Made by a program: the position numbers and the translations under genes
Part shown: piece by piece, positions 3,520 through 28,139 of the stretch
How positions within the stretch are numbered: the first letter of the stretch is position 1
How the letters are laid out: every line of letters begins with the position of its first letter
Notes under the pieces: model-generated
The model's database searches: none
What the model was told of the DNA's origin: nothing
The model's input: the letters and a program-made list of their open reading frames with translations, nothing else
From: a virus
IMG/VR virus record: IMGVR_UViG_3300043436_002545
Span: 1-28,855 of that record
Length of the DNA stretch: 28,855 nucleotides
Strand: one strand, 5' to 3'

Positions 3520-3532
3520 ACCTGCCACTTTT
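3509..3532 (+). terminator. Weak terminator-like hairpin before the portal gene
   Basis: A 6-bp stem, GGCAGG (3509-3514) with CCTGCC (3521-3526), has a 6-nt loop and is followed by ACTTTTCT. It overlaps the end of the basic-protein gene. The downstream arm also contains the TGCCA box of the late promoter, so terminator and promoter share bases. The T-tract is short, so termination may be partial. Confidence 0.4.
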
Positions 3533-3548
3533 CTAAATTAACATACTT
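3523..3548 (+). promoter_or_regulatory. Late-type promoter element before the portal gene
   Basis: TGCCA at 3523-3527, 14 nt, then CATACTT at 3542-3548, then 8 nt to the ATG of the portal gene. The same arrangement recurs before other structural genes in this window. If CATACTT is a -10-like box, transcription would begin within a few bases of the start codon. Confidence 0.6.
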
Positions 3549-3556
3549 AGTAACAA

Positions 3557-4750
3557 ATGAGCAACAATAAAGGCATAACGCACGTTGGAAAGAATGGAGA
3601 GTCATCGTTCCATAAGTTCAGTCTGGAAGTACCAGATCCAACGCTGCCTAGAATCCACGAGGTAAAAAATCAGAGTTGGATTTCGTATGGAATAGATAAT
3701 CTCTATCCTAACAACTTAATTACACCACTCTATAATGGTTCAGCTATGAATCGTTCTTGCATCATGTCAAAATTAGTGGCTGGCATCGGCGAAGGCTTAC
3801 GCACAACTAATCCAGATATGGAATATGTGTTAAATCGTATTAATGAATATGAGGGGTGGAACCAGGTATTCGAGAAGGCTTTTAATGATTTTCTAATTTA
3901 TGGGGGCTACGCTCTTAATGTAATTTGGAATCTTGAGGGGGATAAGATCACAGACATCTACCACATGGATTTTAACGATGTCAGATCTGGCCATATTGAC
4001 TTTGATACAAACCGCGTAGAATGGTATTACTATTCAGCAGACTTTAGTAAGGTTAAAAAAGATATCTATAAGCCTCGGGCTTACAAGTCTTTCTCCCCAG
4101 CCCAAGCAGATTTATACCCAAATCAGATACTTTACTTCTTCAAGCACTCACCCGGCCAAAAGTACTACCCTGTACCCTCGTACTCCGGTTCATTGACCGA
4201 TATTCAGGTGGATGTAAGCATTTCAAGCTTCCATTATTTTAACCTGATGAACGGTTTAAATCCAAGTCTTTTCGTGCAGTTGCATAACGGAATTCCAACT
4301 CCTGAGGAAAGACAAGACATCTATCAAGAACTGTCTAGCACCTTCAGTGGAGTAGACGGAGCAGGTAAGTTTTTTCTAAGTTTTGCTGATGACAAAGAGC
4401 ACAACGTAGAAATTACTCCTATTGATTCCGCTAACGACGAGTACTACATTACTTTAGAATCTCGGATCACTTCCAGAATCTTGACCGGCCACAGGATCTC
4501 ATCCCCCCTCCTACTTGGAATCAAGGATATTGGATCATCAGGATTAACAAATAACAAGGACGAGATCGTCGTAGCTTACACTCATTTCGTTTCTACTGTG
4601 ATACAGCCTGACCAACAGGTTATGTTAAAGACTTGGAACATGCTTATGAAATATTATGGATACGATACAGACTTGTATATAAAACCAAAACAAATATTTA
4701 ACTCCGACGGTGACAAAGTTGGCGAAACAGTAACAGAAGCAATACAATAA
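3557..4750 (+). CDS. Portal protein
   Basis: 397 aa. Portal proteins form the dodecameric ring at one head vertex through which DNA is packaged and ejected, and to which the tail joins. Supporting features: an N-terminal segment ending in SYGIDNLYPNNLI, a helical stretch with NRSCIMSKLVAGIGEGL, the segment FLIYGGYALNVIWN, and a central part with IDVSISSFHYFN-like and GLNPSLFVQLHNGIPTPEER sequences, which match the portal type seen in Bacteroidota phages. It is shorter than many portals (usually 400-550 aa) but appears complete. It lies directly behind a late-type promoter and ahead of an HNH gene and a head-tail adaptor gene, as expected for a portal locus. Confidence 0.8.
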   Translation: MSNNKGITHVGKNGESSFHKFSLEVPDPTLPRIHEVKNQSWISYGIDNLYPNNLITPLYNGSAMNRSCIMSKLVAGIGEGLRTTNPDMEYVLNRINEYEGWNQVFEKAFNDFLIYGGYALNVIWNLEGDKITDIYHMDFNDVRSGHIDFDTNRVEWYYYSADFSKVKKDIYKPRAYKSFSPAQADLYPNQILYFFKHSPGQKYYPVPSYSGSLTDIQVDVSISSFHYFNLMNGLNPSLFVQLHNGIPTPEERQDIYQELSSTFSGVDGAGKFFLSFADDKEHNVEITPIDSANDEYYITLESRITSRILTGHRISSPLLLGIKDIGSSGLTNNKDEIVVAYTHFVSTVIQPDQQVMLKTWNMLMKYYGYDTDLYIKPKQIFNSDGDKVGETVTEAIQ

Positions 4751-4773
4751 TTTTATCATACGGAATAGAAGCG

Positions 4774-4781
4774 TATTTTTG
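4774..4781 (+). promoter_or_regulatory. Host-type -7 box (TATTTTTG) before HNH gene
   Basis: TATTTTTG matches the Bacteroidota -7 consensus TAnnTTTG. It is followed by only 4 nt before the ATG at 4786. A T-rich stretch near 4751-4756 could serve as the -33 element. The position implies a start of transcription at or next to the start codon. Confidence 0.45.
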
Positions 4782-4785
4782 TAAA

Positions 4786-5301
4786 ATGGAAGAATGGAAA
4801 GTTGTAGATATTGAACCTAATTACTCTGTTTCTAGCAAAGGAAGAATTATGAATAACATTAGTGGTAAGGTGTTAAAGCCTGGAGGAAATAAACATGGCT
4901 ATAGAGTAATAACTATAGCCAAGAAAAAATGCTACAATTTACATAGGCTAGTTGCTAAAGCATTTATCCCTAATCCCCACAATAAAAAACAAGTTAACCA
5001 TATCAATGGGGTGAAAGATGATAATAGAATAGAAAATTTAGAGTGGGTTACATCTTCAGAAAACAATCTACATAAATTTAAAACTGGACTAGTGTCAGAA
5101 GAATCTAAATTAAAAATGACTAGAACTGGCAGTGAAGGTTGGAATAGAGGCAAATATTCAATTCCTGAAAAGATTGCTAACGAAATCTATGAAGAATATT
5201 TAACTTTGAAAACTCCTCAAAGAGTTTTGGCAAAAAAATACGGTTCTAGTCCGTGTACTATAAATCAATTAATAAAAAGGAAAAAAGAATATGGCAACTA
5301 A
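4786..5301 (+). CDS. HNH homing endonuclease with NUMOD4 domain
   Basis: 171 aa. Residues ~3-45 form a NUMOD4-type DNA-binding unit (EEWKVVDIEPNYSVSSKGRI). Residues ~50-95 form an HNH_3-type nuclease with NLHRLVAKAF (H53), VNHINGVKDDN (H72) and RIENLEWV. A helix-turn-helix-like segment near the C-terminus (AKKYGSSPCTINQLI) probably adds target binding. The catalytic residues look intact. Such free-standing enzymes cut a specific site and spread by repair of the break. It lies between the portal and adaptor genes, and its 3' end overlaps the adaptor start by 11 nt, so it looks inserted into a structural operon while bringing its own promoter. Confidence 0.85.
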   Translation: MEEWKVVDIEPNYSVSSKGRIMNNISGKVLKPGGNKHGYRVITIAKKKCYNLHRLVAKAFIPNPHNKKQVNHINGVKDDNRIENLEWVTSSENNLHKFKTGLVSEESKLKMTRTGSEGWNRGKYSIPEKIANEIYEEYLTLKTPQRVLAKKYGSSPCTINQLIKRKKEYGN

Positions 5302-6211: not shown

Positions 6212-6230
6212 TATTATTTAAAGAACAATC

Positions 6231-6237
6231 CATACTT
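6231..6237 (+). promoter_or_regulatory. Isolated CATACTT element upstream of a terminator
   Basis: An exact CATACTT copy in the gap after the holin-like gene. There is no TGCCA box at the usual distance and no ATG 8 nt downstream. The strong hairpin terminator at 6260-6288 follows at once. Transcription from here would give only a very short RNA, or be attenuated before the gene at 6292. Confidence 0.35.
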
Positions 6238-6259
6238 GCTAACTTGCTTGTTCAACTAA

Positions 6260-6288: not shown

Positions 6289-6291
6289 ATT

Positions 6292-6817: not shown

Positions 6818-6825
6818 TATATTTG
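6818..6825 (+). promoter_or_regulatory. Host-type -7 box (TATATTTG) before the gene at 6830
   Basis: A perfect TAnnTTTG box with 4 nt before ATG, the same geometry as the box before the HNH gene at 4786. The -33 side is only T-rich. It overlaps the stop region of the preceding gene. Confidence 0.45.
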
Positions 6826-6829
6826 TCCC

Positions 6830-7240
6830 ATGAAAAAAATCAAAGTGTTCAACATCGATACCAAAGAATCTTTTATCTACGAGAAGATTAGTGAAGCAGC
6901 CAAAGCAACAGGCAGAGCACAAGCTTCTATTCATAAAGTGTTATCTGGTAAAACCAATAAGTCAGGAAGATATTTCTTTACCTGCGATTTAGAAATAGAA
7001 GAAGTGCCCGTGGTATTACCTAAAAACTTTAAAGTACCGGATGTTGTGTCAGAACGACGCAAAGAGTTGCGTAAGAAGAAAGTGAATAAGGAAGAAGCCA
7101 AACGTGAGCTACAGCGCAGACCAGTCATCTATACGGGATCGATTCAACACCTGGTGGAGAAGGTAACTTTCGAAAACGACAAAAGAGTCTTACATCTTAA
7201 GTCAACTCAGGATCAGTGGAGTCATCTAGAAAATAGTTGA
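6830..7240 (+). CDS. DNA-binding protein with NUMOD1-like motif
   Basis: 136 aa. The N-terminus has the form KVFNIDTKESFIY followed by SEAAKATGRAQASIHKVL and SGKTNKSGRYFF. This is the NUMOD1 pattern: a short beta strand, a helix-turn-helix of the type AAKxTGxxxxSIxKxL, and a closing GRYFF strand. NUMOD1 normally accompanies homing endonucleases, but no nuclease domain is present. The rest is Lys/Arg/Glu-rich (SERRKELRKKKVNKEEAKRE). It may be a stand-alone DNA binder or the leftover binding half of a homing enzyme. Its position beside the degenerate HNH protein fits the second view. Confidence 0.55.
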   Translation: MKKIKVFNIDTKESFIYEKISEAAKATGRAQASIHKVLSGKTNKSGRYFFTCDLEIEEVPVVLPKNFKVPDVVSERRKELRKKKVNKEEAKRELQRRPVIYTGSIQHLVEKVTFENDKRVLHLKSTQDQWSHLENS

Positions 7241-7278: not shown

Positions 7279-7794
7279 ATGAAAAAAACAGATTCACTAT
7301 TCCAAAATGGGATAGCTTATTATAGATTTCAGAAAAATCTTATTAAGAAGTTATCCCCAGAAGGAGTTGTCATGCTTATGCATCTGATGGATCTTGAGCA
7401 AATCTTAAAGCCCGGGTTTTATCAAACGCACAAACAGCTTAATGAAGCTTTGGGATGGAAGCGGAGCAAGATAGACAATGCGATCAAGGAGCTTTTACAA
7501 CTGAACTTCATTCTAACTGAGAAAAAGCTGAATAACAAAACACATTTTTACATTATCGAAGATAGAATTCTAGACGTTATAGAATCGGTAAATCAGTCCG
7601 CTAAAATCAAGCGGACTAGTTCGTTAAAATCTAGCAGACAAAGACAAGAATATACTAAGACAACTTATGAACAAATGAATAAGCTTACTGCGTGTGTACG
7701 CGAAGACGTTTCCCAAACTTTGAATTCTGATTCCGAACTTTACGCTATTGATGAATTACTGAAAGACAATTTGCCTAACCATGGCCAAGCTTAA
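7279..7794 (+). CDS. Winged-helix DNA-binding protein
   Basis: 171 aa. Residues ~25-95 fit a winged helix: a first helix with LSPEGVVMLMHLMDLE, then THKQLNEALGWKRSKIDNAI as the helix-turn-helix, then LLQLNFILTEKKL and KTHFYII as the wing. The ~75-residue tail is polar with many Lys/Ser. Such proteins serve as regulators or replication initiators in phages. The inverted repeat at 7231-7248 just upstream could be its own operator (inference). The last 14 residues resemble those of the next gene product (LLKDNLPNHGQA here). Confidence 0.5.
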   Translation: MKKTDSLFQNGIAYYRFQKNLIKKLSPEGVVMLMHLMDLEQILKPGFYQTHKQLNEALGWKRSKIDNAIKELLQLNFILTEKKLNNKTHFYIIEDRILDVIESVNQSAKIKRTSSLKSSRQRQEYTKTTYEQMNKLTACVREDVSQTLNSDSELYAIDELLKDNLPNHGQA

Positions 7795-8887: not shown

Positions 8888-9267
8888 GTTTTAACCCCCA
8901 AAACCACGAAGGCTTTATCTTGCTCCGGCTTGATAACTTCATTATGCGCAATGACGCATTAAACCTAGAAGAAAAACTGTACCTGAGCCTTGCATTTGGC
9001 TTCGTTGCACAAGGCAAGTGTATGTTTGCATCACATGAATGGATAGCGTACAAATTTGGCTGGTCTCCTATCTTTGTTAAGGAGATGGAAAACAAATTAG
9101 CACGTCAAGGATTCATCAGAGTCAAGTATGCATCACACACCGGTGGGGGCAGAGCAGTTACATTCATTCTGGATGACTTTGAAGATCCTTGCGAAGGTGA
9201 ACAGTTCGATAACCAATTCGACATTTTTACTCTGTCGGATGATGAAGTAGAATCAGCAGAAGATTGA
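8884..9267 (+). CDS. Winged-helix protein, possible regulator or replication accessory
   Basis: 127 aa. After ILLRLDNFIMRNDALNLEEK, helix LYLSLAFGFVAQGKC, then MFASHEWIAYKFGWSPIFVK as a helix-turn-helix, ENKLARQGFIRVKY as the recognition/wing transition and a Gly-rich turn (HTGGGR) in the wing. This is the pattern of HTH_36-like replication or regulatory proteins. The C-terminal ~30 residues are very acidic. It sits directly before the sigma-like gene with a 4-nt overlap, so the two are probably made together. Confidence 0.5.
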   Translation: MSFNPQNHEGFILLRLDNFIMRNDALNLEEKLYLSLAFGFVAQGKCMFASHEWIAYKFGWSPIFVKEMENKLARQGFIRVKYASHTGGGRAVTFILDDFEDPCEGEQFDNQFDIFTLSDDEVESAED

Positions 9268-9743
9268 GTATCGAAGAATTCATGAACGATAACTACAGCG
9301 AACTTATGAAGGCCTCGAATAAGATAACAGGTAATCATGAGCTTGCTTCTGAACTGCTCCATTATTCGTTGGAGCAATTCTTATGTAAAATAAACGTTCA
9401 GGATATCGTCGATTCTGGTGCTGCTAGATACTTCATAGTAAGAATCTTACTAAATCAGTGGAATAGCAACACCTCCTATTTCTACACAACATTTAAAAAA
9501 CCTAGCGAATCGCTAACGGAAGAACATAATAATCTATATGAAGAAGAACATGACATCACAGAACTTACCAGGAGAGTTGAGCAGATCCTTGAGCCATTAC
9601 CGTGGTTCGATCGTATTCTGTTTAGGACCTACATCGACGAAAGCCACACAAAATCGTCACTGGCACGTGCCACAGGAATACCGAGAACCTCTATCTCATT
9701 ATCCATTAATAGAATCCGTAAGCACATTAAAAGAAATATCTAA
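9264..9743 (+). CDS. Phage sigma-factor-like protein
   Basis: 159 aa, the size of a minimal two-domain sigma factor. Residues ~8-66 resemble region 2 (LMKASNKITGNHELASELLH, where sigma factors show ...GNxxDAEDLxQ; then FIVRILLNQW). Residues ~105-157 resemble region 4: LPWFDRILFRTYIDE, followed by a helix-turn-helix with SSLARATGIPRTSISLSINR and a basic end (IRKHIKRNI). It would direct host RNA polymerase to phage promoters. The start is either TTG at 9264, in a TTGA overlap with the previous stop, or ATG at 9282. It sits upstream of the terminase genes and is the best candidate to read the CATACTT promoters. Sigma identity is by pattern only. Confidence 0.6.
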   Translation: MSIEEFMNDNYSELMKASNKITGNHELASELLHYSLEQFLCKINVQDIVDSGAARYFIVRILLNQWNSNTSYFYTTFKKPSESLTEEHNNLYEEEHDITELTRRVEQILEPLPWFDRILFRTYIDESHTKSSLARATGIPRTSISLSINRIRKHIKRNI

Positions 9744-13026: not shown

Positions 13027-13053
13027 CGTCACCAACTAATAAAATCATACTTA
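13027..13053 (+). promoter_or_regulatory. Late-type promoter element before the tail completion gene
   Basis: The 12-mer AAATCATACTTA (13042-13053) is identical to the elements before the tape measure and protease genes. CATACTT ends 8 nt before the ATG at 13061. The upstream box position reads CGTCA, a poor match to TGCCA. Confidence 0.55.
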
Positions 13054-13060: not shown

Positions 13061-13531
13061 ATGTCACTGATAGAGCCAAAATCGTACAAAGAACTAATTA
13101 AGTCCTTCGAGACTATTTGCTTAGACCAAATAGCTGTAAAGCATTTTCAGGTCGGGGAGATGTCCGACGTGGACATCCAAAATAATAAAGATCCTTTCCA
13201 AAGGTATCCCTTTGTGTTTCTTGTCCCCCGAGTTTCTTCGATGGACAGATATGGCAAGATGATCCTAGGTTTCTCTATGATCGTAGGAGACATCGCCGCA
13301 AACCAGGAGGATCTCCAGATTAACACGCACAACAGTACCTTGATGATTATGCAGGACATTTTGTCCAAGATCATTTTATCAGGACCTTCTTCTGTGGATT
13401 GGGACATTCAAACCCCAGTTCGGATGGTGCCATACGTAGAGAAGTTCAATAACAATCTAGCTGGATGGTCTGCAGAGATTAACGTTCAGATTAACTCACC
13501 ATTCGATCTATGTTCAGCAGCTTTTAACTAA
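13061..13531 (+). CDS. Putative tail completion/terminator protein
   Basis: 156 aa, mixed alpha/beta. It contains MSLIEPKSYKELIKSFETIC, then FPFVFL-like strand segments (RYPFVFLVPRVSS) and WSAEINVQINSPFDLC near the end. Position, length and this strand-helix pattern are like the small tail terminator or completion proteins that close the head-proximal end of the tail. It opens the tail operon behind a CATACTT promoter and is coupled to the next gene by TAATG. The role is inferred chiefly from position. Confidence 0.45.
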   Translation: MSLIEPKSYKELIKSFETICLDQIAVKHFQVGEMSDVDIQNNKDPFQRYPFVFLVPRVSSMDRYGKMILGFSMIVGDIAANQEDLQINTHNSTLMIMQDILSKIILSGPSSVDWDIQTPVRMVPYVEKFNNNLAGWSAEINVQINSPFDLCSAAFN

Positions 13532-16615: not shown

Positions 16616-19429
16616 ATGGCAGGAAATTTACAACTATTTGCAATAAACAAAGTTGGGGAAACTTGTATTCTCCAACTTTCTTCGTATGATCCGATCAGGA
16701 TGACTTTGTCTGTTGCAGAACAAAATCCATTCGTTCCATCTTCGTACTATTCTCAGACTTTTAGAATTCCAGGTCAAGGCGAGAATGTTAATTTCTTTGA
16801 AGACGTCTATTCTGTCAATGGGTTTTCTTTCGACGCTACTAAAGCAGCAGAGGCATGGATACTTTCAGACGGATTCCTATTTACTGTAGGAAACCTTACT
16901 CTTAAGTCTGTTATCAGAAACGAGAAATACGGGATCATAGAATACGAAGTATTATTCATGGGAGACACATCCACGTTTGCATCGGATGTTGGAGACGGTT
17001 ATATGAACGAGATAGACACGTCGGCCCTAAATCATGCATTGACCTACGCTAACGTTACTTCTTCTTGGGGTGCAACCGCCGGGGGTACTGCTGGATTTAA
17101 GAACGGCGATGTTCTTTATCCTCTAATCGAATGGGGCTATAACTATAATTCTGCTTCGGTACCAACTCAAGTTACTCTATCTAATGGATTTCCTAAAGGA
17201 TCTACTGGTCCAGCTCCGGCTGGTTCTTTTACCGCAGGTACCACCGGTGGTTTAGATCTTAAACAGTGGAAACCAGCCACCAGAGTTAAATGGCTTTGGG
17301 ATCAGATTTTTGCAGAAGCAGGATACACTTACACATCTGCTTTTATAGAGTCTGACCTATTTGACAGAATGTATTTCATTTCTGACAACATAGCAAGATC
17401 AGAACAATTCTTGAATGTCGGAGTGTGTCAGATTGCTGGAAGAACCTTCAGGGTTCCACTCGGAGACACCCAAAGAATTTTCTTCACCAATATCATTGCA
17501 GATAGGGATAGAACCTTCGACACTATTCTCTCAGAATGGACTGCTCCTCTTACAGGAACTTATACCATTAGAATGTCTTTGAAGGCCAAAGTAGATCCAT
17601 CGGGAGGACCAACTGCTGTGTTCAGGATAGATTCAGTTAATAATGGAATCCCTTCATTTGGAAGTAACAACTCATTTTCGTCTTCTCCTGCTTTTACCTT
17701 TGTTTACACAAGCACCATCACAGGTTCTTATGTACAAGGGGATGTACTTTCCTACCAGTTGACCAATTTTTCCTTTTCGAATGCCAATCTTCTGTTATAC
17801 GATGTACTATTCGAAGTTTTAGATGGCCCCGACGATGTCATAGTTTCTAACTTTTACCCCGGAGAAGGATCGATGAAAAAGATCGATTTCATCAAAGGCG
17901 TTACCAAAATGTTTAATTTGGTGTTCGAACCCGATAGGGACTCGGCTAAATCATTTAAGGTTGAGCCTTGGATCGATTGGATTCAGGGCGGAGAACAGAA
18001 AGATTGGACAGAATATTTAGATGGATCTACCGACTTGCAGCAGATTCCAGTATTCCAAGATCAGCAAAGGAATCTAATCTTCACAGGAACAGACGATTCT
18101 GATATCCAGAACTTTACATTTCAGGAAGAGTACAAAAGGTCCTTTATGTTCCGTCAATACGATTCTGGAATTAACATCATCAAAGGAGTTCAAGAAACTA
18201 AAGTTCCTTTTGCAGGAACACCATTACAATCTTTGCCTTCTAAAACCGTCGCACAATATCCAAACTGGGTTTTCCCAACTGTTGCTAAATTACAAACTGG
18301 TGACCAAAACCAGCCAGGATCAGGAAGACTACAGCCAGTGCAGATCAAGCCAAGAATTCTGTTCTACAACGGACTCCAAGCAAACGATATTCCTTGGTAC
18401 CTGTTTCCGACTGTGGCGGGCACTACCGGTGCAATAGCACAAAATTCGTATCCACTAGTTTCAACCTTCGAAACCTGGCCACCTAGTAAGTTTACCCAAG
18501 AATTAACTTTCCAATCTAAACCTCAGCTTTGGTCACCCGAGGCAGACTACGTTCAAACAACAGCCAATGATCTGTACACTGTTTATTGGCAAGACTTTGT
18601 AGAATGGCTATACGACCCATTCAACAGAAAAGTCCTGGCTACTTTTAAACTCGACCCGAAGGTGGTTCAGTCATTAAAGTTCAACGACAAGATCTGGGTG
18701 AAAGATTCTTGGTACATGATCACCAAGATTACAGACTACCCAGTCGGAGACATAGCTAAGGTTAAGGTAGAAATGATTAAATGCCCAACACCTGCTCTTC
18801 CAAGGGTAACTGTTGGAGCTACTGGTCCTACGACTGGAGCATCTTGTGCTTCCGTTTCTCTCTGTTACACACAATCACTAACTGCAGAGAATACCTCCTA
18901 CAATTACGTGGACTGCTCAGGAAACTTACAGTCCATCACTCTTGCTCCAGATACCTGCAATGCAGTGTGCATGCTTTACCCACCGGTAAATCCACTTCCA
19001 GAATATTGGTCGGCTATAGTTACAGGTGGATGCACAGGCGGCGAGTACTTCGAGCTTGGTGAAGATGTTGAAATGAGCATTGGAGCTACGGGTGCAATTA
19101 TAGGCAATAATGTTCAAGGCGTTATTTACGGAGCGACCGGAGGCACATCTGGAACTTACATTCCAATGCAGTATTACTTTATTACCCCACAAAATGAAAT
19201 CAATGTTAATTTCAATGTGCCTTTCAACTACGGGGTTAAAATGGAGTTACTCTTTCCAACAGGCGTGTCTGGAGCAAGCATAGATTCTCAGACCATGATT
19301 CTAAAGACAAATGGTGTAACTGGATTCGCATATGCAGCGACGGGGTCTTACCAGCCAGTTACTGGAATCTTTCCTTTAGCTATCACTGGTGGATCAACCT
19401 ACACAGCAGAATTAGAAATCGATTTCTAA
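16616..19429 (+). CDS. Large tail/baseplate protein, possible hub
   Basis: 937 aa. Early residues contain TFRIPGQGENVNFFEDVY (about 48-65) and a DGFLFTVGNLTLKSV strand pair, a pattern I know from large tail proteins of Bacteroidota phages. Further on are KWLWDQIFAEAGYTYTSAF and IDFIKGVTKMFNLVFEPD followed by VEPWIDWI, reminiscent of hub-like domains. The C-terminal ~200 residues are a separate Gly/Thr-rich beta domain with GATG turns (for example VGATGPTTGASC), which may face outward. It starts 1 nt after the previous stop region and ends just before the tape measure promoter. Baseplate hub is the best guess, not shown. Confidence 0.5.
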   Translation: MAGNLQLFAINKVGETCILQLSSYDPIRMTLSVAEQNPFVPSSYYSQTFRIPGQGENVNFFEDVYSVNGFSFDATKAAEAWILSDGFLFTVGNLTLKSVIRNEKYGIIEYEVLFMGDTSTFASDVGDGYMNEIDTSALNHALTYANVTSSWGATAGGTAGFKNGDVLYPLIEWGYNYNSASVPTQVTLSNGFPKGSTGPAPAGSFTAGTTGGLDLKQWKPATRVKWLWDQIFAEAGYTYTSAFIESDLFDRMYFISDNIARSEQFLNVGVCQIAGRTFRVPLGDTQRIFFTNIIADRDRTFDTILSEWTAPLTGTYTIRMSLKAKVDPSGGPTAVFRIDSVNNGIPSFGSNNSFSSSPAFTFVYTSTITGSYVQGDVLSYQLTNFSFSNANLLLYDVLFEVLDGPDDVIVSNFYPGEGSMKKIDFIKGVTKMFNLVFEPDRDSAKSFKVEPWIDWIQGGEQKDWTEYLDGSTDLQQIPVFQDQQRNLIFTGTDDSDIQNFTFQEEYKRSFMFRQYDSGINIIKGVQETKVPFAGTPLQSLPSKTVAQYPNWVFPTVAKLQTGDQNQPGSGRLQPVQIKPRILFYNGLQANDIPWYLFPTVAGTTGAIAQNSYPLVSTFETWPPSKFTQELTFQSKPQLWSPEADYVQTTANDLYTVYWQDFVEWLYDPFNRKVLATFKLDPKVVQSLKFNDKIWVKDSWYMITKITDYPVGDIAKVKVEMIKCPTPALPRVTVGATGPTTGASCASVSLCYTQSLTAENTSYNYVDCSGNLQSITLAPDTCNAVCMLYPPVNPLPEYWSAIVTGGCTGGEYFELGEDVEMSIGATGAIIGNNVQGVIYGATGGTSGTYIPMQYYFITPQNEINVNFNVPFNYGVKMELLFPTGVSGASIDSQTMILKTNGVTGFAYAATGSYQPVTGIFPLAITGGSTYTAELEIDF

Positions 19430-19442
19430 ACACAATGACGCA

Positions 19443-19454
19443 AAATCATACTTA
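19443..19454 (+). promoter_or_regulatory. Late-type promoter element before the tape measure gene
   Basis: AAATCATACTTA, identical to the elements at 13042-13053 and 21830-21841. CATACTT (19447-19453) ends 8 nt before the ATG at 19462. The upstream TGCCA box is not recognisable here (AAACA). Confidence 0.55.
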
Positions 19455-19461: not shown

Positions 19462-21831
19462 ATGGCCAAAGAATTTGTTTTAAAAATTAACGGGGAACCA
19501 GCAGCAAAGACGATCAAGGGAATCCAAGATCAGATTACTGCTTTGGACGAAAAGATAAAGACCTCGGATATTAACGATCCCGACTTCTCCAATCTGATAG
19601 AAGAATCCAACAAAGCTAAACAGGCACTTGGTGTACTTCAGAAAGAAGGGGTAGACGGGCTTAAACCTAAAGGAGCCATAGAAGGTTTAAAAGGTATAGG
19701 ACAGTCGTTAAGTTCTATCCCAGGTCCAATCGGCGGTGCCGTATCAGGATTCCAAGGCCTCTCTAAGGCCGCGATGGCATTCGTGGCGAATCCGATCGGT
19801 GCAGTAATTACTGCACTTGTAGCTATCTTTGCAGCAGTCAACAAAGCAATCAACTCTACCGAGAAAGGTACATTCGCCTTAAATAAAGTGTTTGGTGCAC
19901 TCGGTGGTATCATTAAGCCGATCACCAAAGCAATCGGTGAACTTGCTGCTCTTGTAGCAGAAGGCCTCGTGAAAGCAATGGAATCAGCGATTGATGTGAT
20001 TAGCATCTTCGCACCTTCGTTTGGTGAAGCCGCAGATGCTGGAATGAAGCTTGCCCAAACGTTGAATGAGATTGACGAAGCCGAAGGAGATTTAGAAGTA
20101 GCCAGAGCAAAACAAAACAAACAGTTGGCGGAGACTAGAGAACTTTTGTCTGACACCAACGCTTCGTACGAGGACAGAAAGAAAGCTCTTGACCAGATTA
20201 AAACAGCAGAGACTGCTTTAGCCCAACAGGAAGTTGATTTAGCTAAGAAAAGGTTAGATGCTGCTAACGAAAAAGCTAAACAAGATGGCGAGTCTAAAGA
20301 AAACTTAGATGCTATTGACGCGGCTACCATTAAATTGTTGCAAACAGAACAAGATCTTGCGGCGAAGAGAAGGCAGTTTAACAAGGAAGAGAAAAAGCTG
20401 AAGGCTGAAGATGATGCTAAAGAAAAAGAAACTGCTGCTAAGGCTAAAGCATACGCAGATGAAAGATTAGCTGCACAAGACAAGATTAGAGCTGCTGAGC
20501 AAAAGAATCTTCTGGCTTCTATTAAAGATCAGGAAGAGAGAGATAAGAAGGCTGCAGAATTAGAATTACAAAATTCTAAGAGGGAAATTGACAGAGGAAA
20601 GTACACAGCCGCAGAGAAAAAGAAACTAAAATTAGAAGCAGATAAAACTTATGCTCTTCAGCTAGAGAAGATTAACAAGGATGCTGCCGATAAAGAATTA
20701 GCCGTACAGAAGGAGTTAGCAGATGCTCTTGTTAACACAGATCAGGAAAAGTTTGATAAACAACAACAGGATACTACTGACAACTACAACAAGCTAATAG
20801 AAAAGGCCGAAGGCAACGCAGAGATGATTGCCAAATTAGAAGCCCAGAAGTTAGAACTGTTGAAAGAGCAGGAAGAGCAGTTCAACAAGGATCAGGAAAA
20901 CAAGAAGAAAGCATCAGAGGAAAAGATCCTGGCGGATGCTAAAGAAGTTTACGAGAAAAGAATTAGCGAGATTGAAAAATCCTATGACAAAGAAGCAGCT
21001 TTGTTAGAGCAAAAAGGTTTATCCGATCGAGAACTCCGTAAACAACAAGACGAATTAGAACTTAAGGAACTAGAGGACAAACTTGCAGCGACTGAAAAAA
21101 ATACCGATGAGTATTACAAGCTAGAACTAGAGCTATACAGAAAGAAAAAAGAAATCCGTGACAAGGATTTTGAGGAGACTATAGCGAATCTAAATGCGGG
21201 ATACGACATAGCAGCTTCTTTAGGCCAGGGCCTGATGGAGTTAGATGCAATTAGAACGGAGACCAAACTAGCTAATGAAAACCTTACAGAGCAAGAAAGG
21301 GAAAAAATAGCCAAAGAGTCTTTTGAAAAGCAGAAGAAGTTACAATATGCTATGGCACTCATAGACGCGGCAAAAGCAGTTACCTCTATCATTGCTCAGT
21401 ATCCTAAATTTGACGGTGGATTTGCAATGACCGCCGCTTTGATTACTACTGGTATAACTACAGCATTTAACATCGCCAAGATTTCTGCTACCCAGTATCA
21501 ATCTAAAACAAGTTCAGGTTCTAAACCCGAGGCTAAGACAGCACCTTCAAGATATCAGATGGGTGGGGTACTTAGCGGACCAACACATGATATGGGCGGA
21601 ATTAAAACTGCTTTGGGAGAATTAGAAGGAGGAGAGTTTGTTATGAACCGCAGATCAACTGCTAACTTCCTACCTATTTTAGAGCAATTAAACAACTTAG
21701 GAAATGTACCAGGAGCACAAGTTCCTGCTATGACTCAAACTCCGATTGTCAAAACTTACGTGGTAGCTTCAGATATGACCTCTCAGCAAGAAGCAGATTC
21801 TAAACTTTCACAATTGGCAAGATTGGATTAA
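19462..21831 (+). CDS. Tape measure protein
   Basis: 789 aa. Residues ~78-130 are Gly-rich and hydrophobic (PIGAVITALVAIFAAVNKAI), a likely membrane-active segment. About 200-600 is long Lys/Glu/Ala coiled coil, the length-setting rod. A second hydrophobic part (~620-675) follows. The end, near 693-725, has YQMGGVLSGPTHDMGGIKTA and ELEGGEFVMNRRST, a closing motif common in tape measures of Bacteroidota phages. A fully extended helix of this size would suggest a tail of about 110-120 nm. It has its own CATACTT promoter. The long reverse-strand frame opposite it is a shadow of the Lys/Glu-rich coding. Confidence 0.85.
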   Translation: MAKEFVLKINGEPAAKTIKGIQDQITALDEKIKTSDINDPDFSNLIEESNKAKQALGVLQKEGVDGLKPKGAIEGLKGIGQSLSSIPGPIGGAVSGFQGLSKAAMAFVANPIGAVITALVAIFAAVNKAINSTEKGTFALNKVFGALGGIIKPITKAIGELAALVAEGLVKAMESAIDVISIFAPSFGEAADAGMKLAQTLNEIDEAEGDLEVARAKQNKQLAETRELLSDTNASYEDRKKALDQIKTAETALAQQEVDLAKKRLDAANEKAKQDGESKENLDAIDAATIKLLQTEQDLAAKRRQFNKEEKKLKAEDDAKEKETAAKAKAYADERLAAQDKIRAAEQKNLLASIKDQEERDKKAAELELQNSKREIDRGKYTAAEKKKLKLEADKTYALQLEKINKDAADKELAVQKELADALVNTDQEKFDKQQQDTTDNYNKLIEKAEGNAEMIAKLEAQKLELLKEQEEQFNKDQENKKKASEEKILADAKEVYEKRISEIEKSYDKEAALLEQKGLSDRELRKQQDELELKELEDKLAATEKNTDEYYKLELELYRKKKEIRDKDFEETIANLNAGYDIAASLGQGLMELDAIRTETKLANENLTEQEREKIAKESFEKQKKLQYAMALIDAAKAVTSIIAQYPKFDGGFAMTAALITTGITTAFNIAKISATQYQSKTSSGSKPEAKTAPSRYQMGGVLSGPTHDMGGIKTALGELEGGEFVMNRRSTANFLPILEQLNNLGNVPGAQVPAMTQTPIVKTYVVASDMTSQQEADSKLSQLARLD

Positions 21832-21841
21832 ATCATACTTA
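21815..21841 (+). promoter_or_regulatory. Late-type promoter element before the protease gene
   Basis: TGGCA (21815-21819, one mismatch to TGCCA), 14 nt, CATACTT (21834-21840), 8 nt, ATG at 21849. The element overlaps the end of the tape measure gene, including its stop codon. Confidence 0.55.
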
Positions 21842-21848: not shown

Positions 21849-23720
21849 ATGGAAAAAAAGAAAAAGGTAATCGAACTCGAAATTCTAGAAGACATGCCAA
21901 TGTCAGGAGTTTACGAGATAGCACTGGTGGATTCTCCGGCTATAGAATCTGGCTGGATGGCATTTAAATCACAGGAATTCGTTAAGCCTAGTTCAGGTGA
22001 ATCTGAAGACGAGTTTATCAGCAGATGTATGTCTGTCGTTGCCGGAGAAGAAGGCAAACCCCAGGATCAGGCATTAGCAATGTGCTATTCTATGTGGGAG
22101 CAAGGCTTCGGCATGGAGTTCCAAGAATCGTATGACGATTATCCAGAAGCTGCCAAAGAGAATGCGCAGCGTGCTTTAAATTGGGCAGAAGAAAATGGTT
22201 GGGGTGATTGCGGTACACCTATTGGTAAGGCAAGAGCTAACCAATTGGCTAAAGGAGAACCTATCTCCGAAGATACAATTGCAAGAATGGCTGCGTTCGA
22301 AAGACACAGACAAAATTCAGAAACACCGTATGGCGAAGGCTGCGGCAAACTGATGTGGGATGCTTGGGGAGGTTCAGAAGGTGTAGAATGGGCACAACGT
22401 AAGTTGTCTAGCATTCGCACAGAATTATCATACGACACCTCTGGCTTACCTGCTTATGTAGACGAGATCACAGAGGATAAAAACAAAAACAAGACAATGA
22501 AGTTCGAGGAAATCGATATCTTCGGTTACAAGACCAGATACTTCGATCTCTGCCCAGGAGCAGTTGCTACATTCAGACATTTGATGGAAATGAATCCTGA
22601 CATAGAAACTCAGGGTATGATCCGTTCAGCTGCTTTACAGGCTGATCGTGTTTTTGAAATCGAGTCTAATGTACTTCGGGATGGAATGGCTACAATGGAA
22701 GATCTAAGTGAGGCAACATTATTGGTAGACGATTTCATGGATTTGATGCACGAGATCGACGAAGAAGTAGGCATGACTCATGACGTTGGTTACATGATCG
22801 GTCACCTAGAAGTTATTGCTTCCTATCTGAAAGGTATGGAAGAGGAGTTTCAAGAAAGACCTATAGCTAGAATCCCGAAAGAGGAAAGAGGCAGAGAAGG
22901 ATCAGACAAGAATAAACCCGGCGACACTAAAACAAGCCGTGGTGGAATCGAAGTACCAGCAGACGTAGAATCTACGTTGAAGGACAAGATCAAAGAACAC
23001 AACGAAAAGAACCCACAGGAAAGCCAAAAGGCTGATCTGGGTATGCTGAAAGCTGTGTGGAGAAGAGGTGCTGGTGCATACTCTGTCGGAACACCCGGAC
23101 GTCGTGGTATGTCTAGGCCTCAATGGGCAATGGGTAGAGTAAATGCATTCTTGAAGATCCTATCTGGATCAAGCCCTTCCGATAAGGATTACAAACAAGA
23201 CAACGACTTACTTCCTAAAGGACATCCTAAGCATTCAGAGGAAAAAATGGCTTCATTTAAAATGATGTTTGCCGACGAGGATAAACAAATCGTGGTGGGT
23301 CCTGCTATGATTCCTGACATCGAGATTTTTAGAAAAGACAAAAAAACTAAAGAACCTTACTACGTCAAATTCACTGCAGAAACTATTGCTAAAATAGCGG
23401 AGAAGTTTATGCGTGAGAATCGCAACAACGAATCTAACGTTAACCACAACACAGAAGATCGAGCAGGATCTTATGTTATGGAATCTTGGATTGTAGAAAC
23501 CCCGGAGGATAAAGCAAACACAGTTTACAATCTAGACGTTCCTGTTGGAACCTGGGTAATTAAGATGCGTGTGCAAGATCCTAAAGTTTGGAAAATGGTC
23601 AAGGCCGGAGAACTCACGGGTTTTTCCATTGAGGGCGAGTTTATGACAAAAGAAGAATACGATAAATACATGGTCGATCGGGAGAAGTACGCTCAGATTA
23701 TGAGTTTGCTTCGTTCTTGA
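21849..23720 (+). CDS. Multidomain XkdF-like prohead protease
   Basis: 623 aa. The ends look like one XkdF-type head maturation protease: residues ~20-38 (GVYEIALVDSPAIESGW) and ~468-610, with VNHNTEDR (H533), MESWIVE and KAGELTGFSIEGEF. Between them are inserted units: a Cys-containing segment ~54-84 (EFISRCMSVV and QALAMCYSMW); ~98-188 with ALNWAEENGWGDCGTP and EGCGKLMWDAWGG; an acidic helical unit ~217-335; and ~397-460 with LGMLKAVWRRGAGAYS and PQWAMGRVNAFLKIL. The protease would process scaffold and capsid during head maturation, fitting its position ahead of scaffold and capsid genes. The roles of the inserted units are unknown. Confidence 0.65.
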   Translation: MEKKKKVIELEILEDMPMSGVYEIALVDSPAIESGWMAFKSQEFVKPSSGESEDEFISRCMSVVAGEEGKPQDQALAMCYSMWEQGFGMEFQESYDDYPEAAKENAQRALNWAEENGWGDCGTPIGKARANQLAKGEPISEDTIARMAAFERHRQNSETPYGEGCGKLMWDAWGGSEGVEWAQRKLSSIRTELSYDTSGLPAYVDEITEDKNKNKTMKFEEIDIFGYKTRYFDLCPGAVATFRHLMEMNPDIETQGMIRSAALQADRVFEIESNVLRDGMATMEDLSEATLLVDDFMDLMHEIDEEVGMTHDVGYMIGHLEVIASYLKGMEEEFQERPIARIPKEERGREGSDKNKPGDTKTSRGGIEVPADVESTLKDKIKEHNEKNPQESQKADLGMLKAVWRRGAGAYSVGTPGRRGMSRPQWAMGRVNAFLKILSGSSPSDKDYKQDNDLLPKGHPKHSEEKMASFKMMFADEDKQIVVGPAMIPDIEIFRKDKKTKEPYYVKFTAETIAKIAEKFMRENRNNESNVNHNTEDRAGSYVMESWIVETPEDKANTVYNLDVPVGTWVIKMRVQDPKVWKMVKAGELTGFSIEGEFMTKEEYDKYMVDREKYAQIMSLLRS

Positions 23721-24066: not shown

Positions 24067-24402
24067 TTAGTCTAAAGATCCGTAGATGAACGAAGTACCG
24101 TTAAACTCGTCGTTTAATAAATGACCAAGTCTAGTTAGATGATAAATGTTGATGCACCAAATCAACGATAGAGCATGCGTGAATTCATTGCCTTCTTTTC
24201 GGAAATCAACCAATTCGTCTAATTGTTCAAACATCCAACTAGTTCCTTCCTTTTCGATTTCTTTTTCACAGTCGGAAACATAGCTTTCCATTCGTTGAAT
24301 TAATGGGTCTAAATCACATACGTCCTTTTCCAAAGTGATGCTTACCCCTTTGTAGAAAAATCCTGCCATGTGAAGGGGTTGGTTTAAAATGTTGTTTGTC
24401 AT
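24067..24402 (-). CDS. Reverse cassette gene 3: hypothetical protein (111 aa)
   Basis: 111 aa, helical, acidic. It begins MTNNILNQPL; gene 2 of the cassette also begins MTNN, and the bases around both starts are alike. It contains ALSLIWCINIYHLTRLGHLL, a hydrophobic helix. It is preceded by its own copy of the 66-bp promoter repeat (24410-24475), so it can be transcribed apart from the upstream genes. The function is unknown. Confidence 0.65.
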   Translation of the reverse strand: MTNNILNQPLHMAGFFYKGVSITLEKDVCDLDPLIQRMESYVSDCEKEIEKEGTSWMFEQLDELVDFRKEGNEFTHALSLIWCINIYHLTRLGHLLNDEFNGTSFIYGSLD

Positions 24403-24409: not shown

Positions 24410-24475
24410 TTTTGTTATTAGTATGATACAAATGTAGATATACATAATGTAAAGAAAAAATGTAACTTAGAAAAT
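24410..24475 (-). promoter_or_regulatory. 66-bp promoter repeat, copy 1 (reverse strand)
   Basis: Identical over 66 bp to 25103-25168. On the minus strand it contains TACATTTG (24436-24429), a perfect TAnnTTTG box, then ATCATACTAATAAC, which also resembles the phage CATACTT element. The ATG of the gene at 24402 follows shortly after. A perfect duplicate before two transcription units strongly suggests a promoter or control region. Confidence 0.65.
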
Positions 24476-24478: not shown

Positions 24479-24931
24479 TCAGTCTAATAAATGGAAAAAT
24501 CTGTCATCCGATTCTTGTAATTCGTAGTATGCTTCCACTTGTGCTTCACCCAAACAGTCAGGGTGATAGTTGAAAGCATACATGACAATACAAAGAGCAA
24601 CTAGTTCGGTAAAATTTAAACTGTATTTTTTACCGTCAGCATCTTGGCAAATGTAATTATTTTCTTTTAGCATTTTGTTAACGTCCCTTTTGGTCATTGA
24701 TATCAATGTGCTGTTCCTCCATTCTACAAAAGATTCGTCCATTATACCAATTAGAATAGTTTCCCAGGCCTTATCTGGGATGTGTTGCTTTAACAAGTTA
24801 ATTTGTTTTTCGGTTACCCAACTTTTCCAACTTTTCCAATTTCCCATAATCGATAAATCCTCTGCTGACGGGAATACGCTTAGCACTTTTTCTACTGCTG
24901 GATTTACTTGATCTGTCATGTTGTTTGTCAT
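24479..24931 (-). CDS. Reverse cassette gene 2: hypothetical protein (150 aa)
   Basis: 150 aa, helical and acidic. The start could be M1 (24931) or M5 (24919); M1 lies 1 nt after the previous stop, which favours it. Segments include SWVTEKQINLLKQHIPDKAW and SLNFTELVALCIVMYAFNYH. It is soluble with no recognised catalytic motif. It is co-transcribed with gene 1 from the upstream repeat promoter. The function is unknown. Confidence 0.65.
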   Translation of the reverse strand: MTNNMTDQVNPAVEKVLSVFPSAEDLSIMGNWKSWKSWVTEKQINLLKQHIPDKAWETILIGIMDESFVEWRNSTLISMTKRDVNKMLKENNYICQDADGKKYSLNFTELVALCIVMYAFNYHPDCLGEAQVEAYYELQESDDRFFHLLD

Positions 24932-25102: not shown

Positions 25103-25168
25103 TTTTGTTATTAGTATGATACAAATGTAGATATACATAATGTAAAGAAAAAATGTAACTTAGAAAAT
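25103..25168 (-). promoter_or_regulatory. 66-bp promoter repeat, copy 2 (reverse strand)
   Basis: Identical to 24410-24475. The minus-strand TACATTTG box is at 25129-25122. It drives the first two genes of the reverse cassette. Its upstream edge touches the TGCCA box of the forward scaffold promoter, so the two promoters point away from each other with almost no space between. Confidence 0.65.
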
Positions 25169-25193
25169 GCCATCCCTCGTTACTAACATACTT
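25168..25193 (+). promoter_or_regulatory. Late-type promoter element before the scaffold gene
   Basis: TGCCA (25168-25172), 14 nt, CATACTT (25187-25193). Here the ATG is 21 nt downstream (25215) rather than 8, so this transcript would have a short leader. Confidence 0.55.
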
Positions 25194-25214
25194 CTATGTA
25201 AATAAGTTTAACCA

Positions 25215-25808
25215 ATGAACGTTTACAAAGAAAAACTAAACCTAATTAGAATTGCCTTAGGTATGGCTGTTAAGATGGTTAGTGCTAAATTGGAAGACGG
25301 TGTAACTGTAGTGGAAGCTGAAGCGTTTGAACCTGGCAAAGAGATATTCGTCGTATCTGAAAGCGGGGAGAAAGCAAAAGCACCAGAAGGAATACACACG
25401 ACCGAAGATGGTACTAAAGTAACAGTTGATGCTGAAGGTAAAATTGTTTCTGTGGAAGCTCCTAAAGCTGAAGTAGAAGTTGAAGCTAAAGTTCACGACA
25501 AGGACGAAGAAGAAATGGCGGAAGACAAAGTTCTTGATCCTGCTATGGTTGATGCAATGGCTAAAATTATCGAAGAGAAAATGAAATCTTACAAGATGGA
25601 AGTTTCTGACGTTATTGAAGCTATTGTAAAAGACGTAATAGACGTTAAAGAAGAAATGAGCCAGTGTATGGCACGTATCGAAAAAATGTCTAAGACTCCT
25701 GCCGACAAGAAAATTTCTACATTCAACACAGAAGTAAAAGAAGACAAGTTCGATGCTATTGAAGCTCGCATCGAGACCTTGAAAAATATCAGAGCTGGCA
25801 AAATCTAA
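25215..25808 (+). CDS. Putative scaffolding protein
   Basis: 197 aa, acidic and rich in Glu, Lys, Val and Ala. A middle stretch (SVEAPKAEVEVEAKVHDKDE) is low complexity, followed by helices (VDAMAKIIEEKMKSYKMEVS and VIDVKEEMSQCMARIEKM), the usual form of a phage scaffold: an acidic protein with a helical C-terminal part. It lies between the protease and the major capsid gene, the standard place. It would guide prohead assembly and then be removed. Identification is by position and composition. Confidence 0.6.
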   Translation: MNVYKEKLNLIRIALGMAVKMVSAKLEDGVTVVEAEAFEPGKEIFVVSESGEKAKAPEGIHTTEDGTKVTVDAEGKIVSVEAPKAEVEVEAKVHDKDEEEMAEDKVLDPAMVDAMAKIIEEKMKSYKMEVSDVIEAIVKDVIDVKEEMSQCMARIEKMSKTPADKKISTFNTEVKEDKFDAIEARIETLKNIRAGKI

Positions 25809-25833
25809 TCTAAAAAAAATAACTAAATAAACT

Positions 25834-26781
25834 ATGAGTTTTGATTTATCTGGCTTGTCGCCCTATACCGACCAGCTTTCTACCGACCTCATCAGCAAGG
25901 CATTGCTTAAGCCTCACACAGTACAGTACTTGACCATCATGGCAGGTAAAACTGCAGGTACTTCTGCAATCAACTTGTTGAATTCTAATCCGTACATCGT
26001 GGATGCTACCTGCGGATTTAACACTAACACCACAGGCCCAGGCGGGGCTACTGGTAACTCAACTGTATTCGATCAGATCGATTTGGTTGTGCAATCTAAA
26101 ATGCTAAAAGAACAATTGTGTGCGGAGGATTTAAGGACCTATTGGTTATCTAGCCAATTAAGCCCCTCGGCCTATGCGGAAAATGTACCATTTGAAGCGG
26201 CCATCGCACAAAATAAGGTAGACAACATCGCGGCCTATGTAGAGAACACTATCTGGCAAGGTGACGGTTCAAACTTAGATGGTTTGCTTGCACAAGCAAC
26301 TGTAACTAACGGTTGTATCGGTGGAACCGGTGCAGGTATCACTGTACCTTTGGTAGTTGCTAGTGCATTTGACACTATTTGGGCTATCATCAACAAGTTG
26401 TCTAACGCATTGAAGCAAGAGCGTGACTTGGTTATGTACATGTCTTTGACTAACTACCAAATCGCTGTCCAAGCAGTTATGGCTGAGGGCAATTCCTTGG
26501 TCCTTCAGTTTCCCCAGGTGAACAACACCACTGGTGATGCTCCTATGGCGTTCATCTTCCCAGGAACTAACGTAACCATCTTTGGTGCTCCTGGTTTGAA
26601 CAGCAACAGTTCTATCATCTTGGGCCCTAAGAAATTTATTTTCTTTGGTACAGGTTTGTTAGATGATGCTGATCGCTTCAAGTTCTACTACGATCCTTCA
26701 CAAGACGTTGTAAACTTCATGTCTAAATTCAGACTTGGAACTGCAGTATACGCTTCTCAGTTCGTATCAACAATCGCGTAA
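25834..26781 (+). CDS. Major capsid protein
   Basis: 315 aa. The N-terminal part has PYTDQLSTDLISKALLKPHT; the core includes FDQIDLVVQSKMLKEQLCAE and a long helix near IAAYVENTIWQGD, typical of HK97-like capsid proteins of Bacteroidota phages. The C-terminal segment GPKKFIFFGTGLLDDADRFK with FYYDPSQDVVNFM fits the P-domain and end of the family. Scaffold and protease genes lie upstream, and the tail tube lies downstream. A strong hairpin follows the gene. High expression is expected. No long N-terminal delta domain is present, in line with a separate scaffold gene. Confidence 0.75.
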   Translation: MSFDLSGLSPYTDQLSTDLISKALLKPHTVQYLTIMAGKTAGTSAINLLNSNPYIVDATCGFNTNTTGPGGATGNSTVFDQIDLVVQSKMLKEQLCAEDLRTYWLSSQLSPSAYAENVPFEAAIAQNKVDNIAAYVENTIWQGDGSNLDGLLAQATVTNGCIGGTGAGITVPLVVASAFDTIWAIINKLSNALKQERDLVMYMSLTNYQIAVQAVMAEGNSLVLQFPQVNNTTGDAPMAFIFPGTNVTIFGAPGLNSNSSIILGPKKFIFFGTGLLDDADRFKFYYDPSQDVVNFMSKFRLGTAVYASQFVSTIA

Positions 26782-26787
26782 TTAAAC

Positions 26788-26819
26788 GGGGCTTATGAGG
26801 CCTAGGCCTTGTAAGTCCC
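26788..26819. terminator. Long hairpin after the capsid gene, possible attenuator
   Basis: GGGGCTTATGAGGCC can pair with the GGCCTTGTAAGTCCC segment, with a few G-T wobble pairs, giving a stem of about 14-16 bp centred on CCTAGG. The T-run after it is short (CCCTTTATA), so termination may be partial. It could lower expression of the tail tube gene relative to capsid, or stabilise the capsid mRNA 3' end. Confidence 0.5.
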
Positions 26820-26852
26820 TTTATAAAAAACTAAAATAAGAAAAAAAACTAT

Positions 26853-27380
26853 ATGGCTTGTAATTTAACCGGAACTATAGCACTCGATTGCCTTGATTCG
26901 ATCTCTGGTATCAAAACCCTTTGGGTTGGTACCGACGTTGAAGTGGGAACAATCACAGCGGGTGCCACTGGCGGTATTACTAGCTTGGCAGGTGCTACTG
27001 GAGCTTTTTACCAGATCGAAGTAGCGAAAGATGTTGCATCGTTTACAGAGACTTTTAACGTGTCTCAAACTAACGGTACTGCATTCTTTAGTCAAGCAGT
27101 TGTAATCCCTATCCAGCATTTGTCTTCTGCAAAGCGTCAGCAAATTCAGTTGCTTACCTACAATCGTGCTTCTAGATGTGTTATCGAGGATAACAACGGA
27201 GATTATTGGTTGATCGGTGCAACTCGTGGATGTACTGTTACATCTGGATCGAGCATGACGGGGACCCTCGTGGGGGATATGTCAGGATACAATATCACTA
27301 TCACAGCGGATGAACCAGAAATGGCTTACCAAGTTTCTAGCTTGTCTGCTTTAACCGGTATCACGTTTGTAAACGTGTAA
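26853..27380 (+). CDS. Putative major tail tube protein
   Basis: 175 aa, almost all beta strands. The segment FNVSQTNGTAFFSQAVVIPI, then WLIGATRGCTVTSG and VGDMSGYNITITADEPE match the pattern LIGA.rGl...tG...GD..GY.it..g.E, which I associate with tail tube proteins of Bacteroidota phages. Size and high Gly/Thr content fit. It lies after the capsid gene and ends with a strong terminator. It contains two GATG turns. A distinct tail tube is needed with the tape measure present, and no better candidate exists in the window. Confidence 0.6.
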   Translation: MACNLTGTIALDCLDSISGIKTLWVGTDVEVGTITAGATGGITSLAGATGAFYQIEVAKDVASFTETFNVSQTNGTAFFSQAVVIPIQHLSSAKRQQIQLLTYNRASRCVIEDNNGDYWLIGATRGCTVTSGSSMTGTLVGDMSGYNITITADEPEMAYQVSSLSALTGITFVNV

Positions 27381-27403
27381 TACCCTAATCAATCACCAAA
27401 ATA

Positions 27404-27429
27404 GGCGTAAGGAAACTTACGCCTTTTTT
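27404..27429 (+). terminator. Rho-independent terminator after the tail tube gene
   Basis: Perfect 8-bp stem, GGCGTAAG (27404-27411) with CTTACGCC (27416-27423), with a GAAA tetraloop and six T (27424-27429). Confidence 0.9.
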
Positions 27430-27433
27430 GTTT

Positions 27434-27459
27434 TGCCACATTCTAAGTTTCACATACTT
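27434..27459 (+). promoter_or_regulatory. Late-type promoter element before the gene at 27468
   Basis: TGCCA (27434-27438), 14 nt, CATACTT (27453-27459), 8 nt, ATG at 27468. It follows directly on the strong terminator, a clean boundary between two transcription units. Confidence 0.6.
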
Positions 27460-27467
27460 CTTTTGGA

Positions 27468-28139
27468 ATGCTAAACTTAACTCCGCAAACTACCAACAAC
27501 CTAATCGTCTATGCCGATACGGTTACCGCTGGAGGAGCGACTGGCGCATATTTCACTATGCTGTTTACGAACGCTTACTCTAGGCAGACGTTTGCAGTTG
27601 TTCCTAATGTAGTAAGACGCAACGCACGTTTCATTGAATTTGAAATCGATCTGGTTAATTACAACCAGGCAGATGATCGTGCTAATGGTGAGATCTATTT
27701 GTATCCCGAGGGTAACTTCGACTACATGGTCTTTAACACTACCGTACCTACATTAGATGTTGGCAGCCAGTTTACCTGTGATACATGGGCTAATGATGAG
27801 GATTTCTGGAACTATTGGATCGACTTTTTTGGAGTTTGTTCAGGTACAGCAACTGAAATAGATCGTGGACAGGCATTCTTGTACGCTGATCTTGCTTGTG
27901 ATCGTGAGACAGAATTTGTTCCTTACATTTCTAACAACGAATTCTTACAATCAATTGTATACGTTGTTGGGATACCACAAGTCCAATTTCCTTGTACAGT
28001 AGTCGCTGGCTCCACATGGACTGTAACCGAAAATACCGTTACCTATTGTAATCCTATTACAATCGAGAATAACGCGAACCTAATAATAAACAACAACGTA
28101 TTTCTAAAACAAATTCTCTCAGATTATGTCCAATGCTAA
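27468..28139 (+). CDS. Virion structural protein, fibre-associated
   Basis: 223 aa, beta-rich. The first ~100 residues (NLTPQTTNNLIVYADTVT, then LYPEGNFDYMVFNTT) resemble a family found next to tail fibre genes in Bacteroidota phages. The C-terminal part is different, Asn-rich, ending in NANLIINNNVFLKQI. The gene starts a new transcription unit with a late-type promoter and overlaps the collagen-like fibre gene by 14 nt, so the two products are probably made and used together. It may anchor the fibre. Confidence 0.5.
   Translation: MLNLTPQTTNNLIVYADTVTAGGATGAYFTMLFTNAYSRQTFAVVPNVVRRNARFIEFEIDLVNYNQADDRANGEIYLYPEGNFDYMVFNTTVPTLDVGSQFTCDTWANDEDFWNYWIDFFGVCSGTATEIDRGQAFLYADLACDRETEFVPYISNNEFLQSIVYVVGIPQVQFPCTVVAGSTWTVTENTVTYCNPITIENNANLIINNNVFLKQILSDYVQC

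Follow-up and report, generated by a model that had tools for sequence, protein, structure and literature searches.

Putative promoters in front of the virion genes

The stretch of DNA analysed here, referred to as the window, is the virus record IMGVR_UViG_3300043436_002545 in its full length (28,855 bases, classed as linear in IMG/VR). It contains genes for a terminase, a portal protein, an XkdF-type protease and tail proteins, and it carries a two-part motif in front of its virion genes, which was analysed together with a small gene (9264-9743) for an extracytoplasmic function (ECF)-like sigma factor as its candidate reader. A megablast search of the window against cultured phages gave no match. 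The host is probably a member of the Bacteroidota, because the nearest cultured terminases are those of Nonlabens phages (approximately 35% identity) and because host-type promoters are found in the window.

An earlier note on this DNA had listed seven copies of CATACTT on the plus strand and proposed that they belong to a phage-specific late promoter. All seven were recovered at the positions given there. Five of them are located exactly 8 nucleotides (nt) 5' of the ATG of the genes starting at 3557, 13061, 19462, 21849 and 27468, and the copy at 25187 lies 21 nt before the ATG of the gene at 25215. Also the upstream box was as described, with TGCCA-N14 in exact form at 3523, 25168 and 27434 and TGGCA at 21815, so that TG[CG]CA stands 14 nt upstream of four plus-strand copies, and the copies at 13046, 19447 and 21834 share the 12-mer AAATCATACTTA. 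However, only six of the seven are supported as sites, as the copy at 6231 has no partner box and fails the matrix described below; it is probably a chance occurrence. The upstream box is better given as tGNCAg, since CGTCA belongs to the copy at 13046 and only AAACA to that at 19447; in relatives the motif reads tGNCAg-N13-CATACTTA. The sites are the following.

3523-3549, plus strand: putative late promoter 1, TGCCA-N14-CATACTTA, 8 nt between CATACTT and the ATG of the portal gene 3557-4750; matrix score 20.9
13027-13053, plus strand: putative late promoter 2, CGTCA-N14-CATACTTA, before gene 13061-13531; matrix score 26.5
19428-19454, plus strand: putative late promoter 3, AAACA-N14-CATACTTA with a weak upstream box, before the probable tape-measure gene 19462-21831; matrix score 13.4
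21815-21841, plus strand: putative late promoter 4, TGGCA-N14-CATACTTA, before the protease gene 21849-23720; matrix score 22.0
25168-25194, plus strand: putative late promoter 5, TGCCA-N14-CATACTTC, 21 nt between CATACTT and the ATG of the scaffold-like gene 25215-25808; matrix score 9.9
27434-27460, plus strand: putative late promoter 6, TGCCA-N14-CATACTTC, before gene 27468-28139; matrix score 12.6
6231-6237, plus strand: seventh CATACTT, without upstream box (letters TATTA); fails the matrix

CATACTT is also present twice on the minus strand, where the copies end at 7281 and 9130. The total of nine is mildly above chance (mean of 4.4 in shuffled windows, nine being reached in 4 of 100 shuffles). 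The weight of the motif therefore comes from its position and conservation and not from the bare 7-mer count.

Conservation of the motif in related phages

The earlier note had suggested looking for the motif in related phages, and there it indeed recurs on one strand and before orthologous genes. Relatives were fetched by their portal and terminase proteins, and all or almost all of each contig was read. A matrix trained on 29 sites of six relatives, to which no window site contributed, finds exactly six sites in the window, all on the coding strand and none antisense, compared to a mean of 0.72 matches in shuffled windows for both strands together. In four relatives CA-N14-CATACTT occurs on the coding and antisense strand in ratios of 7:0, 8:0, 4:0 and 5:0, respectively, and each longer relative contig carries the motif 4-8 times in front of the same virion genes, i.e., the portal gene, the first gene after the terminase, the probable tape-measure gene, the protease gene, the scaffold-like gene and the orthologue of gene 27468.

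For the individual sites, orthologues of promoter 1 lie 5' of the portal gene in clade I relatives, and promoter 2, whose gene is the first after the terminase region, has orthologous sites in relatives as well. Promoter 3 has a counterpart before the tape-measure orthologue of relative G008 (at 5082), and promoter 4 corresponds to sites in G002, G004, G007, G008 and G010. Promoter 5 precedes the scaffold-like gene, which is followed by the capsid-like gene 25834-26781, and its orthologous sites have leaders of 33-36 nt; promoter 6 has orthologous sites in G002, G006, G007, G008 and G010.

The spacing was tested on the 79 viral loci with homologues of the sigma factor. TGNCA and YATAYTY with a spacer of 14 were found in 35 distinct coding-strand contexts versus 4 antisense, and all other spacers from 8 to 20 gave background numbers of 0 to 7 on either strand. 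Scanning the collection for the full motif in exact form yielded 88 contigs, which is close to the number estimated for chance; 80 of these loci, taken as controls, had no surplus of sites with spacer 14, and tblastn with the sigma factor, terminase or portal protein found no match in them. A scan for classical sigma-70 promoters gave fewer matches than in shuffled sequences. Taken together, the relatives share a two-part motif with fixed spacing, which is oriented with the structural genes and absent elsewhere.

An ECF-like sigma factor as candidate reader

The sigma factor gene had been missing from the earlier note and was found in the follow-up.

9264-9743, plus strand: ECF-like sigma factor gene, 159 amino acids, TTG start; proposed reader of the promoters

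The protein matches phrog_1740 ('RNA polymerase sigma factor') over residues 2-157 with E=3.4e-5. Ten other family members also match phrog_1740 and five match phrog_1190; the matches to both families are weak (E 1e-5 to 1e-6). Of 53 homologues, 20 match Pfam Sigma70_r4_2 (best E 8.6e-6), and for Sigma70_r2 there were only weak matches, in the diverged group (E 0.002-0.02). In the AlphaFold model (pLDDT 84) two helical domains are connected by a low-confidence linker (residues 83-94). Model and Foldseek matches together fit region 2 and region 4 domains joined by a flexible linker, with no other domains, as in a sigma fold. Of the first seven Foldseek ranks in the PDB most are ECF sigma factors, in complex with RNA polymerase or an anti-sigma factor, and viral structure matches include named sigma-70 factors (E ~4e-7 to 2e-5). 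Sequence searches of the PDB with the sigma factor gave nothing useful, no homologue was confirmed with its profile in GTDB genomes, and no homologue of the window protein was found in cultured phages. The gene is present in those motif-bearing relatives whose contigs cover its region. That this protein reads the motif is likely, judging from their joint occurrence and from the predicted fold.

Apparently most of the 79 loci start the sigma gene with TTG (sometimes GTG) and not with ATG; a weak start codon that is conserved in this way could keep the production of the sigma factor low. In addition, a motif-like site is found inside the sigma gene of G002 (14416), G008 (26625) and G010 (5914; all in coding-strand coordinates) with scores of 19.7, 19.7 and 12.7, respectively, and is not present in the window. 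It may be a coding coincidence or an internal promoter for downstream genes.

Co-variation of promoter and sigma factor

The downstream box occurs in the variants YATACTTA, YATATTTA, YATAYTCA and YATATTTC, which group by clade of the sigma tree, with 15 changes compared to 43.5 for shuffled labels. The most diverged sigma group has only about 23% identity to the window protein (hhalign homology probability 98.1), and its structure model is weaker (pLDDT 73, four sequences). In this group AGAA replaces GNCA, still 14 nt from YATATTTA. AGAA-N14-YATATTTA was found 11 times on the coding strand and never antisense, and not at all with any other spacer from 8 to 19; several of these contigs are near-copies, giving 7 distinct contexts. 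The AGAA box fits a changed -35 box read by a changed region 4. Phages of the far groups with similar terminases were considered as a clean natural swap of the sigma factor only, an idea that is weakened by the divergence of their portal and capsid proteins.

Leader length and predicted transcription starts

The leader behind the octamer is mostly 6-7 nt long in the group of the window, 22-25 nt in a second group, about 19 nt in a third, 7 nt in a fourth and 5 nt in a fifth. Within clade I it ranges from 3 to 35 nt, scaffold genes having the longer leaders, and in clade II it is typically 22-25 nt. In the regions upstream of the portal genes the distance from the -10-like box to the ATG shifts from about 6 nt to 21-25 nt between clades while the promoter is retained, possibly a switch between leaderless and leadered late mRNAs.

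For the prediction of start points the TA of the box was set at -12/-11, as in sigmaA promoters of Flavobacterium johnsoniae (PMC6847099), a position borrowed from another promoter class. If this Bacteroidota-type start position holds, five window sites have their predicted transcription start 1 nt 5' of the ATG, and the mRNAs would thus be nearly leaderless. Leaderless mRNAs are a small minority in Flavobacterium psychrophilum (5.5%; PMC9723704).

Alternative explanations

The motif is very likely a real phage promoter, as the earlier note had proposed: the two boxes are held at a fixed spacing of 14 nt, on one strand and before orthologous genes, and the leader is variable. The late timing is inferred from the gene content. 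A coincidental 7-mer picked by eye could at most draw on the mild over-representation of CATACTT and has a negligible probability, since the matrix from relatives recovers the sites independently and these are biased to one strand, keep their spacer constant and stand at orthologous positions; it is refuted for six of the seven copies. A translation-initiation signal would fit the position of five of the seven window copies, at exactly 8 nt from the ATG, and the A-rich letters in front of the start codon, as known for Bacteroidota initiation regions (PMC6847099). However, the distance to ATG varies within and between clades (around 24 nt in clade II) and the spacing to the upstream box is constant, which argues for a promoter and not for a ribosome signal; moreover, the upstream box would sit about 35 nt before ATG, and most window genes lack the motif. 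We therefore rejected this explanation, which is very improbable. Only marginally better placed is the explanation that a phage repressor or activator binds to the motif, or that the motif serves recombination or marks a module border, instead of being a core promoter. The sites do lie at borders of gene units, two of them directly behind terminator-like stems, but they are strictly oriented with the downstream gene, have no dyad symmetry and show promoter-like fixed spacing, and the spacer letters are not conserved between clades.

More serious, although still unlikely, is that the promoter is read by a host sigma factor (as variant sigmaA site or by a host ECF factor), or by host polymerase assisted by an activator of the phage; in either case protein 9264-9743 would have another role. 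With TG upstream and TA about 21 nt behind it, the geometry is similar to that of Bacteroidota promoters with their -33/-7 layout. Yet the TANNTTTG box, which defines sigmaA promoters (PMC6847099), is found at -12 to -5 in none of the six sites, which have TACTTA or TACTTC there instead, whereas other window genes do have it. In addition, the motif goes along with a family of sigma factors that is carried by phages and of which no member was found in bacterial genomes.

Several observations weigh against a phage promoter read by the phage sigma factor. Near-identical contigs inflate some of the counts, and promoters 3, 5 and 6 fit the matrix only moderately. The sequence matches of the window protein to sigma factors are weak and it has no Pfam match itself, and its best Foldseek match in the PDB has an E-value of only 0.02 (probability 1.00). 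Finally, the joint drift of promoter and sigma factor follows also from common descent and is no proof of pairing, because the whole phages diverged too, including portal and capsid proteins in the far groups.

Even so, we consider it probable that the virion genes are transcribed from these promoters by host polymerase together with the sigma factor 9264-9743. Host sigmaA would first transcribe the genes bearing TANNTTTG boxes. The sigma gene is located between probable early genes and the terminase, and its product would then redirect host RNA polymerase to the six sites, each of which would head one virion-gene unit. The promoter would consist of the -35-like box tGNCAg and the -10-like box YATACTTA, exactly 14 nt apart, and five of the sites would give almost leaderless mRNAs.

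Host-type promoters, terminators and other features

Besides the putative late promoters, the window contains host-type boxes and terminator-like stems.

25122-25129, minus strand: host-type (sigmaA) box TACATTTG, before the minus-strand gene 24479-24931; contrast class, probably early
24429-24436, minus strand: host-type box TACATTTG, before the minus-strand gene 24067-24402
3509-3526, plus strand: terminator-like stem, directly upstream of and overlapping promoter 1
27403-27424, plus strand: terminator-like stem, directly upstream of promoter 6

This layout suggests that host sigmaA serves the early units and the phage sigma factor the virion units. Both minus-strand TACATTTG boxes, each before a small gene, are carried by a perfect 66-bp direct repeat (24410-24475 and 25103-25168); the box at 24429-24436 is listed as lying in its second copy. 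The second repeat copy ends on the first base of the upstream box of promoter 5. The host-type boxes TATTTTTG and TATATTTG (4774-4788 and 6818-6832) lie 4 nt before the ATG of the HNH endonuclease gene 4786 and of gene 6830, respectively, and the mRNAs of these two genes may be leaderless too. The protease gene 21849-23720 encodes a composite product with an XkdF-like C-terminal part, and internal stretches of it match proteins of Roseobacter phages and haloarchaeal viruses annotated as capsid, portal or protease.

Comparison with known systems

No description of such a system was found in the open-access literature on sigma factors or late promoters of flavobacterial or Bacteroidota phages, and none of a promoter for phrog_1740 or phrog_1190 in the literature searched. 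A phage sigma factor with its own promoters is as a kind already known from phiEco32. As far as we found described, new are the family, its promoters, their graded drift and the predicted near-leaderless late mRNAs. More tentatively, and somewhat short of an even chance, these aquatic Bacteroidota phages would form a family whose ECF-like sigma factors diverge fast, each paired with a drifted promoter of its own (YATACTTA, YATATTTA, YATAYTCA or YATATTTC with the NCA box, YATATTTA with AGAA). These would be a natural set of potentially orthogonal pairs, and three of the five groups would express near-leaderless late mRNAs in hosts whose mRNAs mostly carry leaders.

For a large group of uncultured phages that probably infect Bacteroidota, the system outlines how transcription is organised, and the question of which protein reads which promoter becomes testable. 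The drifted series is a data set on the joint evolution of a minimal sigma factor and its promoter, and could supply promoters as tools for use in Bacteroidota. Should the 5' ends map as predicted, phage late mRNAs would be near-leaderless in a phylum where such mRNAs are a small minority.

In T4 (gp55, late) and SPO1 (gp28, gp33/34), both large phages of other bacteria, sigma subunits of the phage likewise turn the host RNA polymerase towards middle or late promoters; T4 late promoters have a -10 box only and need the sliding clamp. The Bacteroidota sigmaA promoter (TTTG and TANNTTTG), of which host-type copies are present in the window, is likewise two-part with similar overall distances. 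However, the late sites have YATACTTA or YATACTTC as downstream box and not TANNTTTG, and their upstream box is the conserved tGNCAg.

In phiEco32 and 7-11 a small phage ECF-type sigma factor directs host RNA polymerase to phage promoters before the structural genes, and host promoters serve the early genes (PMC4331800; PMC7881722). The same division of labour as in these Kuravirus-type phages is predicted here from sequence, and proteins of the phiEco32-like phages Cronobacter GAP52 and Salinivibrio CW02 are among the structural matches of the window sigma factor, with weak E-values. In difference to the promoters of phiEco32 (TAATGTATA) and 7-11 (TGATGT) in enterobacteria, those described here read tGNCAg-N13-YATACTTA, lie mostly 6-7 nt from the start codon and belong to probable Bacteroidota phages, and the sequence of their candidate sigma factor forms a separate, fast-evolving family.

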